DNA from: a bacterium
GTDB taxonomy: Bacteria; SZUA-79; Acidulodesulfobacterales; Acidulodesulfobacteraceae
NCBI GenBank assembly: GCA_021777135.1
Contig: JAJYDX010000001.1
Span: forward strand, 524,947 to 588,946
DNA: 64,000 bases
Direction: 5' to 3'
The notes beneath the pieces were generated by a model. It had not been told where the DNA came from. It did no database searches and saw nothing but the letters and a program-made list of their open reading frames with translations. Position 1 is the first letter of the stretch, and every line of letters starts with the position of its first letter. Below are positions 1 to 10,575 of the stretch, one piece after another. The translations under genes were made by a program, and so were the position numbers.

Positions 1-581
1 AAAACCATAATAGTAGCAATGATTAATGATATTAGTAAAGCAAGGTCTAATATGTAGGAAAATTTTGAACTGAATTTAATTATTTTTGTTTCAAATTTTG
101 TAGCCGCGATATAAAACTTGCCTTCGTTTATATAAGAACTGATTATGATATCAAGATTGATATCTATAATTTTATTAACGGATGCAATTAGTTCATCTCT
201 CTTGTCAGAACTTGAAAAATTCTTAATAATTATGCTGTGTATAAAATTCCTTATATAATTCATAGTCGCGCTTACATAGTGAGAAGGTAATTTTATTTCC
301 GCGTGAACTTCTCCTATCCTCTTTAATTTTCGCAAATATTCGTTATTATAAACTCCGGAAAAAAGCCCCATAAACCAAAATTTTAATTTTTCCTGATGCC
401 TGTTTCTAATTTCTTCGTTAGGCAAAAATTTGCTAAAATCTTCAAAATTAGAAATAAATGAATAAGTGCCGGAAATAAAATCGTTTGCGTTTAAACCCAT
501 TAATTCGTTTAACTGCATTAAGTTTGAAACGTCGTTATCCGTAAATGAATAAATTAGCTTTATTTTATCTAGAGTTTCCAT
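1..581 (-). CDS. Globin-coupled sensor, N-terminal protoglobin domain followed by a hydrophobic segment (truncated at the window edge)
   Basis: Own translation of the minus strand from ATG at 581: METLDKIKLIYSFTDNDVSNLMQLNEL...NRHQEKLKFWFMGLFSGVYNNEYLRKLKRIGEVHAEIKLPSHYVSATMNYIRNFI...FSYILDLALLISLIIATIMV. The 'YLRKLKRIGEVHAEIKLP' stretch matches the proximal-His region of the protoglobin/globin-coupled sensor family. Open to base 1; not in the supplied ORF track. Confidence 0.8.
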   Translation of the reverse strand, partial: METLDKIKLIYSFTDNDVSNLMQLNELMGLNANDFISGTYSFISNFEDFSKFLPNEEIRNRHQEKLKFWFMGLFSGVYNNEYLRKLKRIGEVHAEIKLPSHYVSATMNYIRNFIHSIIIKNFSSSDKRDELIASVNKIIDINLDIIISSYINEGKFYIAATKFETKIIKFSSKFSYILDLALLISLIIATIMV

Positions 582-7061: not shown

Positions 7062-9383
7062 ATGGCAGAGATTAAGTATTCCGCTGGATATAGACCTAAA
7101 ATTTCTATAAGAGCTAAATTAATACTATCTTTTTCTTTAGCCGTTTTAATCCCGTTAATACTTTTAGCCCTTGCAAACACTTATATATTTAGAAACCAGA
7201 CCAAGAAAGAAAGCCTGAATAAAGTCCATATTACGTTAAGCGGGGCTAAGAGGATTTATTATTCTCAGGCTAATCGCTTAAAAAACGGGTTCTTAGTAAG
7301 TTCTTACAACAGTTATTTGATAAGCGCCGTTGTTAATAAAAATATTTCTTTCCAGAATACTTTAATTAAATCTTATAAAGCCGCTTTTAATTTTGCCGAC
7401 TACATAGGAATTGCAAATAGGGATGGATTGGTTACTGCTTCAACTAGCGGAAGCAGCGGCTTCAAGCCTGCCTTAGGTGGCATTATGTTCGAAGCTTTAA
7501 GGACCGGTTTTCCCGTAGTTAAATCTGCTATTATTAGAAAATCAACTCTTGCAAGAATGGGGATTGAGACATTCGCAGGCTCTTCAAATATGTTTTTGGT
7601 AACTTATGTTCCTCTTTTATACTATGGACATCCGGTAGGAGCTATCTTCGGTCTTATAAACTTAAGCAATAACGGTTATCTTCCGGAAACAATCTATAAC
7701 GAATATCACCTTAAAACCGCTGTTTTTGCGTCTCTTTTCAACAGGCAGGTATGCCTTTCAACATTAAAAATTCCTGGAAACATTTTCGGCCAAGGTTCTA
7801 GGCTTCCAGAGGATATTCACAACCAGGTGATGAATGGAAAGGATTTTATAAGAGAACTTAATTACAACGGGCAAACCGTTTTTGCCGCATTTCATCCCAT
7901 AAAAAACATAGACGGCAGGGTTATAGGCTCTATAGCCGTATTTATTTCAAACAGGCATTACATAAGCTTGTTTAGAAAGACCGCAGAATATGCAATATTT
8001 ATTATCTTAATAGGTTTAATTATATCACTAGTTATTTCGTATTTTGCATCAAAAGATACTTTAAATCCGATATCCGCTATAGGAACTGCCATTAAAGATT
8101 TTACTTCAGGAGATTTAGATACAAAGCTAGTTATCAATACCAACGATGAATTTGAGAACATAGGAAAGGGTTTTACTGAAATGGCTATGAAGGTTAAAGA
8201 CAGAGAAGAAAGAATGCAAAAATATAATTCGTTTTCCGATTTTTTGGTAGGTTCTTTGGATTTCGATAAAATAATAACCTCAACTTTGAATATTTTAGAG
8301 GAACTTCTTAACATATCTTCCGGAATAATTTACGTTTACAGCAAAAGCGGCAAATTTACGGCATCAGACGAAGAAGACAGTAAAAAAAGCAATAATAATC
8401 AAGCTGCCGCGGAAATTAACAATCCTGATGATGAAAATTTAGGTGAATCGTCGAAAAATGAAGAAGGTTTTTTAATACCGTGGCAGTTTTACGGCATAAG
8501 AAAATTTGTAGCTAATAAGATAAATGCTTCGGATGGAATGGCGGGACACTGTCTTAAAGACAGAAAGACTATATGGTTTCACGATATTCCAGAAAACGCC
8601 ATGATTTTAAAAGAAAAACTCTTGGAAAAAGAAGGAGCCGGTACGGCTATGGATTACGGTTTTTGCGAGGTATTTCCAAAAGATATAATATGGCTTCCCA
8701 TGTATGTCGGAGATATAAACATCGGCGTTTTAATGGTTTCTTCTATATATGGTTTTAAAAAAGAGGATATAGTATTTTTAGAGCATGCCGTTAAAGAACT
8801 TTCGGTATCTTTGGATAACGCAAAAATACACAGAAAGGTAAATGAGCTTTCAATAACCGATGAGCTTACAGGTCTTTACAACAGAAGAAAAATGGACGAA
8901 GTTTTAGAATTTGAATTCAATAAAGCTAAAAGATACAGGAGCAGCTTGTCTGTTATGATATTAGATATAGATCATTTTAAACAAATTAACGATTTTTACG
9001 GACATAAAGTAGGCGATATAGTTTTATCGCAAATAGGCTCTATTTTAAAGCACAATATTAGAAATATAGACATAGCCACGAGATATGGAGGAGAAGAGTT
9101 TGTAATAATTCTGCCCCAGACAGATTTTGACGGAGCAGTTCTATCAGCCAAAAAATTAAAAAACCTGATAAAGAATTACAGGTTTACTCAGTTAAAGGGT
9201 GAAGTTACTATTTCTATAGGTATAGCTAATATGCCGGATGAAAGAATAAATACAGTCGACGATATATTAAAAATTGCCGACGATTTCCTTTATGAGGCGA
9301 AAAACAGCGGCAGAAACAGGATAATGGGGGAATATAAGGGGCGAAAAGCAGAGGTATTCGAGGACGACGATATCCCTAAATAA
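7062..9383 (+). CDS. Membrane diguanylate cyclase: dCache-like periplasmic region, HAMP, GAF-like, GGDEF
   Basis: Two TM segments, HAMP-like region, GGDEF domain with DELTGLYNRR...RNIDIATRYGGEEFVIILPQT (active site GGEEF, I-site RxxD five residues upstream). Confidence 0.9.
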   Translation: MAEIKYSAGYRPKISIRAKLILSFSLAVLIPLILLALANTYIFRNQTKKESLNKVHITLSGAKRIYYSQANRLKNGFLVSSYNSYLISAVVNKNISFQNTLIKSYKAAFNFADYIGIANRDGLVTASTSGSSGFKPALGGIMFEALRTGFPVVKSAIIRKSTLARMGIETFAGSSNMFLVTYVPLLYYGHPVGAIFGLINLSNNGYLPETIYNEYHLKTAVFASLFNRQVCLSTLKIPGNIFGQGSRLPEDIHNQVMNGKDFIRELNYNGQTVFAAFHPIKNIDGRVIGSIAVFISNRHYISLFRKTAEYAIFIILIGLIISLVISYFASKDTLNPISAIGTAIKDFTSGDLDTKLVINTNDEFENIGKGFTEMAMKVKDREERMQKYNSFSDFLVGSLDFDKIITSTLNILEELLNISSGIIYVYSKSGKFTASDEEDSKKSNNNQAAAEINNPDDENLGESSKNEEGFLIPWQFYGIRKFVANKINASDGMAGHCLKDRKTIWFHDIPENAMILKEKLLEKEGAGTAMDYGFCEVFPKDIIWLPMYVGDINIGVLMVSSIYGFKKEDIVFLEHAVKELSVSLDNAKIHRKVNELSITDELTGLYNRRKMDEVLEFEFNKAKRYRSSLSVMILDIDHFKQINDFYGHKVGDIVLSQIGSILKHNIRNIDIATRYGGEEFVIILPQTDFDGAVLSAKKLKNLIKNYRFTQLKGEVTISIGIANMPDERINTVDDILKIADDFLYEAKNSGRNRIMGEYKGRKAEVFEDDDIPK

Positions 9384-9396
9384 TTTATAAAAATTT

Positions 9397-10575
9397 CTAA
9401 ATATCTTGTTTTTCGTCTATATTTTGTTTTATTTCTAATATTTCGTCCATGCCTTTTAAAAAAGATTTAAAGCAATCCGGGTCGAAAGCTTTCCCCGGCT
9501 TCATTTCGTCTTTCATAATTGTAATGGTTTCTTTTAGGTTATATGCAGATTTATATATTCTTTTATTAATTAATGCGTCGAAAACGTCTGCTATCTTGGA
9601 TATTCTGCCCATTAGCGGAATTTTTTCGCCAGATAACCCGTAAGGATATCCGCTACCGTCAAAATTTTCATGATGAGACAGAGCTATAATCGACCCATTT
9701 TTAAGGGTTACGGATTCGGAATTTTTTAGTATGTTATAACCTATTTCCGCGTGTGTTTTCATAACTTCAAATTCTTCTTTAGTAAGCCGTCCCGGTTTTA
9801 AAAGAATAACGTCGAGTATTCCAACCTTTCCTATATCGTGCATAGGCGACGCATTTAATACTTCTTCCTGAAATATTTTATCCATTCCAAGTTCATTTGC
9901 TATAACCCTGGCATAATTAGACATTCTAGAAATATGCTTACCGGTATCTTCGTCCCTGTATTCGGCAAGCACTATAAGTCTTTTTAATGAATCCTGCTCC
10001 ATTTTATAAATGTCGTCCTCAGATTTTTGATAATAAGATTCTATCGCAAGAGTGATATCTATGGAGAGTAATTTTTGAACGGAATTTAATATGTTTATAC
10101 ATTCGTCTAAATTAATCCCGTTTTTTTTACAGCATTTAATTATAGCCGACGTTATAAGAGTATTGTAATAACCGTAACTTCCTATATAAATCGACGGCGA
10201 AATTTTATAAATATAATGCGCGAAACCTATCACGACCCTGTTTATAAAATATTTTTCGTCATAGGTTAAACTGAATAGCTGTTTTATATAGTGAGATTGG
10301 GTAAGTTTCAACTGCTCTAAGAGATCCGGTTTTGAAAGGATAATTTTGCGGGTTTCGTCTATTGTCATTAAATAATCGTAAAAGTCGGAAGCGATTTCCA
10401 ATGCAATATCATCCATGCAATATTTAATTTTAGAGACACCTTGCAAATCAGATTCAGTAAAATTAGTCAATTTATGCAAAAGCCTAATATTATTTTCAGA
10501 AAAAAGACCGTGAATGTCCTGTATGCCTTTTCCTGTCATTTTATTTTTTTCGAGTATGTCGTTTAATCTGCCCAT
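9397..10575 (-). CDS. Globin-coupled HD-GYP domain protein (putative oxygen-responsive c-di-GMP phosphodiesterase)
   Basis: N-terminal LEQLKLTQSHYIKQLFSLTYDEKYFINRVVIGFAHYIYKISPSIYIGSYGYYNTLI (protoglobin); C-terminal HDIGKVGILDVILLKPGRLT...HHENFDGSGYPYGL (HD-GYP). Confidence 0.85.
   Translation of the reverse strand: MGRLNDILEKNKMTGKGIQDIHGLFSENNIRLLHKLTNFTESDLQGVSKIKYCMDDIALEIASDFYDYLMTIDETRKIILSKPDLLEQLKLTQSHYIKQLFSLTYDEKYFINRVVIGFAHYIYKISPSIYIGSYGYYNTLITSAIIKCCKKNGINLDECINILNSVQKLLSIDITLAIESYYQKSEDDIYKMEQDSLKRLIVLAEYRDEDTGKHISRMSNYARVIANELGMDKIFQEEVLNASPMHDIGKVGILDVILLKPGRLTKEEFEVMKTHAEIGYNILKNSESVTLKNGSIIALSHHENFDGSGYPYGLSGEKIPLMGRISKIADVFDALINKRIYKSAYNLKETITIMKDEMKPGKAFDPDCFKSFLKGMDEILEIKQNIDEKQDI

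Follow-up and report, generated by a model that had tools for sequence, protein, structure and literature searches.

Does a minus-strand gene in a 64,000-nucleotide stretch of bacterial DNA (the window) encode an enzyme that breaks down c-di-GMP in response to oxygen? The first-pass annotation had read the N-terminal half of its product as a protoglobin and the C-terminal half as an HD-GYP phosphodiesterase with an intact core.

The gene and its two domains

The open reading frame is intact, with an ATG start and without an internal stop; the start residue is common to its orthologues, and every peptide quoted in the first-pass annotation was found within it (Table 1). The domain search proposed there recovered both Protoglobin and HD-GYP, each far above the Pfam cut-off. 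A PDB sequence search matched residues 39 to 183 to the globin of the Geobacter globin-coupled sensor (GCS) 2w31 (E = 1.1e-7) and residues 155 to 387 to PmGH of Persephonella marina (4mcw). The protein has the layout of a globin-coupled sensor, that is, an N-terminal protoglobin upstream of a signalling output domain, and no middle domain lies between globin and HD-GYP (Pfam, AlphaFold). Both domains are under purifying selection: in closely related pairs, dN/dS (Nei-Gojobori) was 0.09 to 0.14 over the gene and similar in the globin and HD-GYP halves, pairs with dS near or above 1 being saturated and indicative only. A chance or frameshift artefact is ruled out by the domain scores, conservation and dN/dS, and the matches lie far beyond chance.

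The structure prediction that had likewise been proposed gave an AlphaFold model (input, a 20-sequence alignment; mean pLDDT 79, pTM 0.54) that resembles known structures in both halves. In Foldseek comparisons it matched the GCS globins 8h17, 5ohe/5ohf and 2w31 and HemAT (1or4/1or6) with a TM to target of 0.78 to 0.89 and an rmsd of about 2 to 2.6, and the HD-GYP structures 4mcw, 4r8z and 9rbz, with a TM to target of 0.77 for 4r8z. In the model, a single long helix, putatively the signalling helix, leads from the globin into the HD-GYP domain. Because pLDDT drops to 61 to 67 over residues 181 to 210, the domain junction is uncertain, and in a model with this pTM the relative placing of globin and HD-GYP is poorly determined.

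Table 1. Features of the globin-coupled HD-GYP gene and its convergent neighbour (window positions)
Feature	Position	Strand	Evidence
Globin-coupled HD-GYP gene, 392 aa	9397..10575	-	ORF, Pfam, orthologue start, dN/dS
Globin sensor domain, residues 27-185	10021..10497	-	Pfam Protoglobin PF11563, E = 2.9e-25, 89.6 bits (cut-off 25); Foldseek to AfGcHK, HemAT, Tlr1989 and Geobacter GCS globins
HD-GYP phosphodiesterase domain, residues 203-366	9478..9969	-	Pfam HD_5 PF13487, E = 8e-32, 110.8 bits (cut-off 27.2); 4mcw, E = 5e-51; Foldseek 4mcw, 4r8z, 9rbz
Single long helix, residues 156-207, putative signalling helix	9955..10110	-	AlphaFold/DSSP H156-207
Predicted proximal heme ligand His120 (F8), on HemAT His123	10216..10218	-	Profile alignment to 1or4; 20/20 relatives
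Distal Tyr66 (B10), on HemAT Tyr70	10378..10380	-	Profile alignment to 1or4; 18/20 relatives, remaining two Cys and His
HD dyad His246-Asp247	9835..9840	-	20/20 relatives
HHENFDGSGYP, residues 301-311	9643..9675	-	HH and GYP invariant, 20/20
R339-I-Y-K342, RxxK guanine-recognition motif	9550..9561	-	R339 and K342 in 20/20; motif defined in PMC10882959
Asp210 at the place of PmGH Glu185 (third-metal ligand)	9946..9948	-	Alignment to PmGH; Asp in 17, Asn in 2, Ala in 1 of 20 relatives
Convergent neighbour, Cache-HAMP-GAF-GGDEF diguanylate cyclase, 773 aa, GGEEF and RxxD site	7062..9383	+	Pfam; 13-bp gap; same neighbour in G024

Heme pocket and HD-GYP active site

Heme-pocket positions were assigned by profile alignment to HemAT (1or4), with residue numbers counted from the printed alignment, and conservation was counted in 20 full-length relatives, the window protein among them. 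The histidine of the peptide GFAHYI, put forward in the first-pass annotation as a heme-ligand candidate, falls on the proximal histidine of HemAT and does not vary among the relatives. Leu89 and Thr92 align with HemAT Leu92 and Thr95; the leucine is kept throughout (20/20), and the threonine is found in 12 relatives and otherwise replaced by V, M, I, S, N or A. The window protein retains the full HemAT-type set of Tyr, Leu, Thr and His. Since Thr92, and Tyr66 in two relatives, vary, gas affinity may differ between subtypes.

The nearest solved HD-GYP domain is that of PmGH. This protein differs in its N-terminal input, which is a GAF domain and not a globin, and in its trinuclear iron centre with Glu185. 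PmGH residue numbers follow Bellini et al. 2014, and the register was checked on the alignment. The absence of metal-binding residues had been named in the first-pass annotation as grounds for refuting the assignment; all seven aligned ligands (H214, H246, D247, H275, H301, H302 and D330) are there, each in 20/20 relatives, as are Lys250 and G309-Y310-P311. A Glu matching PmGH Glu185 marks the trinuclear HD-GYP class, and the Rxx(R/K) motif has been linked to the c-di-GMP specificity of HD-GYP domains (PMC10882959). Membership of the trinuclear subgroup is ruled out for the window protein by Asp210 at the glutamate site, where its relatives have D, N or A. With Asp210 in place of the trinuclear-type Glu, a two-metal enzyme stopping at pGpG would be expected; this is a weak inference because the enzyme of Vibrio fluvialis, which has the Glu, likewise stops at pGpG.

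Oxygen-gated hydrolysis of c-di-GMP as the proposed function

The globin-HD-GYP architecture is already known, and what is added here is its spread through a phylum, its paralogues and its tandem arrangement with globin-GGDEF. Globin sensors that break down c-di-GMP were first characterised in 2024, with the V. fluvialis protein, in a paper whose own bioinformatics found GCS-HD-GYP in V. fluvialis and V. furnissii only (PMC10882959), which rules out a wholly new architecture. In the open-licence literature searched, the name GCS-HD-GYP occurred only in that paper, and earlier listings may exist elsewhere; a 2022 review describes GCS domains in several cyclases and phosphodiesterases. Like the window protein, the Vibrio proteins consist of a globin (residues 1 to 166) followed so closely by HD-GYP (169 to 366) that no middle domain fits between the two; the V. 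fluvialis enzyme, compared by its published description, also shares the proximal His and distal Tyr, the metal ligands and RxxK (PMC10882959). This enzyme converts c-di-GMP to pGpG in its Fe(II)-O2 and Fe(III) forms but not in the Fe(II), CO and NO forms (PMC10882959). Unlike the window protein with Asp210, it has a glutamate of the trinuclear type, Glu190. Furthermore, the present proteins belong to a different phylum and occur as several paralogues per genome, whereas biochemistry is available only for Vibrio. The fusion may have arisen independently of that in Vibrio.

Two further systems are related in part. In the globin-coupled diguanylate cyclases DosC/YddV and BpeGReg, a GCS globin is likewise the heme-based O2 input to c-di-GMP; their output is synthesis, and they have a middle domain, which is absent here (PMC5549716). 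Bhr-HD-GYP of Ferrovum is also an O2- or redox-related metal sensor driving HD-GYP in an acidophile, with a hemerythrin (non-heme diiron) in place of the globin (cited in PMC8846402 and PMC10882959).

The best explanation, and a probable one judging from sequence, model and analogy, is that the window gene encodes a heme O2 sensor that would gate the hydrolysis of c-di-GMP to pGpG. The protein would be a cytoplasmic one-component gas sensor, in which the N-terminal globin would bind heme via His120 and a diatomic gas, most likely O2, would bind to the distal side of the heme, steadied by Tyr66. The ligand state may then shift the long helix that follows the globin (the protein probably being a dimer), and this shift would switch the HD-GYP domain, which would linearise c-di-GMP to pGpG with the help of two metal ions. 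If the protein behaves like the V. fluvialis enzyme, binding of O2 would turn the phosphodiesterase on; c-di-GMP would fall under oxygen and the cell would go from an attached to a motile state. In a biofilm-dwelling facultative anaerobe, c-di-GMP may thus be lowered when oxygen reaches the cell, and motility would be favoured. For the window protein we infer heme binding, the identity of the gas, the direction of the response, the product and the physiology by analogy, and the direction is not readable from the sequence.

Alternatively, the globin may sense NO, CO or the redox state of the heme, or O2 may inhibit the phosphodiesterase, so that c-di-GMP would rise with oxygen. Consistent with this, the distal residues vary among the relatives (Thr92 in eight, Tyr66 in two), the water inhabited by the organisms is rich in iron and sulfide, and the Fe(III) form of the V. 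fluvialis enzyme is also active, which makes redox a possible input. However, the window protein itself has the complete HemAT-type pocket and the V. fluvialis enzyme is O2-selective (PMC10882959), and we consider this alternative unlikely. Still less probable is an HD-GYP domain that has another cyclic dinucleotide (3'3'-cGAMP) as its substrate or serves mainly for c-di-GMP-dependent interaction. V-cGAP3, a 3'3'-cGAMP phosphodiesterase, is the second match in the PDB sequence search, and cGAMP signalling occurs in some formerly deltaproteobacterial lineages (PMC6456294, for Geobacter); yet the best match, PmGH, is a c-di-GMP enzyme, and the RxxK motif tied to c-di-GMP specificity is invariant. 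A globin that has lost heme binding, in a protein that acts as a scaffold free of heme or as a constitutive phosphodiesterase, would fit the decay and recombination seen in the family (a clear paralogue pseudogene in genome G007 and a chimeric copy in G001), but is very improbable given the invariant His120 and purifying selection that acts alike on the globin and enzyme halves.

Distribution, subtypes and gene neighbourhood

Relatives of the protein include that of Candidatus Acididesulfobacter diazotrophicus, which NCBI places in Candidatus Acidulodesulfobacteriota. Members of this phylum are described as facultative anaerobes from the water, biofilm and sediment of acid mine drainage; they have cytochrome bd and express flagellar genes at a high level (PMC6776010). 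Cytochrome bd and flagellin are also encoded in the window genome, together with a single PilZ protein; six matches to EAL and 24 to GGDEF were found there, and as two of the GGDEF matches share one frame, these amount to some 23 genes. Full-length globin-HD-GYP is found in 16 of the 30 genomes of the phylum examined. The window genome has two full copies, the second (contig C70, 393 aa) being 53% identical to the window protein, and a fragment at the end of contig C89 (L052 9392-9721, G000) that covers the first 110 aa of a third. This fragment is more similar to the gene of genome G009 (98/110 identical) than to the window gene (89/110) and may therefore represent a paralogue or a congener's contig that contaminates the assembly. 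In this uncultivated phylum of acid-mine-drainage oxygen gradients, an architecture known from two Vibrio species is frequent, has been duplicated and is kept by purifying selection; natural variants (Asp, Asn or Ala for the third-metal Glu; varied distal pockets) are on hand to test the gating of HD-GYP by a globin.

The first-pass annotation had called a globin that drives HD-GYP rarer than globin-GGDEF, and this holds: no sampled globin protein of other phyla carries HD-GYP. An HD-GYP output was never found among the globin-domain proteins of about 356 other genomes, nor GCS-HD-GYP among the best matches listed in a 291-genome set of another phylum; this rarity is a low-sensitivity estimate because the searches score only few candidates per genome. 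Globin outputs in the sampled genomes of other families were MCP, histidine kinase, GGDEF, GGDEF-EAL, STAS, PsiE, others or none. A tblastn search for plasmid-borne relatives gave no record with one place covering 80% of the query, the best ones matching the HD-GYP half only.

In the globin tree, the globin-HD-GYP proteins form three sets: the window type (genera g1, g2, g3 and g5), the type of the C70 paralogue, which nests next to it, and a third type in G016, G011, G029, G002 and G013. In G016 and G011, the third-type gene directly adjoins a globin-GGDEF gene (GGDEF and RxxD intact), followed by a PAS-GGDEF gene. The globins of these tandem cyclases are placed with those of the phosphodiesterases and apart from most globins of other phyla (moderate support, 90/85; fork drawn open). 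The window genome has no globin-GGDEF. In E. coli, DosC and DosP are an O2-responsive make/break pair for c-di-GMP, DosP being a PAS-heme-EAL protein. G016 and G011 likewise have a make/break pair side by side; unlike DosC/DosP, this pair relies on globins in both members and on HD-GYP for the breaking step. It is conceivable, though doubtful, that both the making and the breaking of c-di-GMP in this phylum respond to oxygen through globins that apparently share one origin, and that the two adjacent proteins, with different oxygen set-points, are a version of DosC/DosP built from globins alone. In such a system, the window protein would be the breaker arm in a genome that lost or never had the globin-based maker. 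In any case, the tandem loci let one ask whether one sensor fold drives opposite outputs.

The tandem loci themselves (L046 7286-10158 and L043 3602-6289) are nearly identical in two genera, which points to a recent transfer or to one of the MAGs being contaminated. Other loci of the family are altered. In G029, what remains of a globin-GGDEF beside an intact globin-HD-GYP lacks the globin N-terminus (L048 1253-1700), and in G007 a decayed C70-type globin-HD-GYP (L068, about 8270-8800) lies between genes also present at the intact locus. The G001 gene (L063 2396-3598), which comes after an MshEN/T2SSE ATPase gene, is an apparent chimera whose globin groups with the C70 type and whose HD-GYP groups with the window type in the trees.

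The window gene converges with a Cache-HAMP-GAF-GGDEF cyclase gene, and the pair is therefore not one operon. The cyclase, a separate protein, is likely a counterpart of the globin-HD-GYP. G024, which belongs to another genus, retains the order ThiC, cyclase, globin-HD-GYP, ROK, DnaB, rplI, and G017 has it without the cyclase. Other GGDEF genes adjoin elsewhere, CHASE3-GAF-GGDEF (convergent) in G007 and GAF-GGDEF-EAL in G009 and G010. By hand count, a GGDEF gene is adjacent in 4 of about 13 distinct contexts, against about 0.3 expected from 24 GGDEF genes in roughly 2100 (binomial P about 2e-4), which is only suggestive because the contexts had been inspected before they were counted and the number of genes is estimated.

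A second globin fusion lies at the edge of the window: a 298-aa protoglobin-PsiE protein (window 3-581, minus strand) extends past it (L001 1069-1965), and its PsiE-type membrane domain makes it a membrane-bound globin. No paper with both "protoglobin" and "PsiE" was found in the open-licence literature searched. Most genomes of the phylum and several of the other families sampled have the fusion, which, being widespread, was dropped as a candidate for an unusual one.
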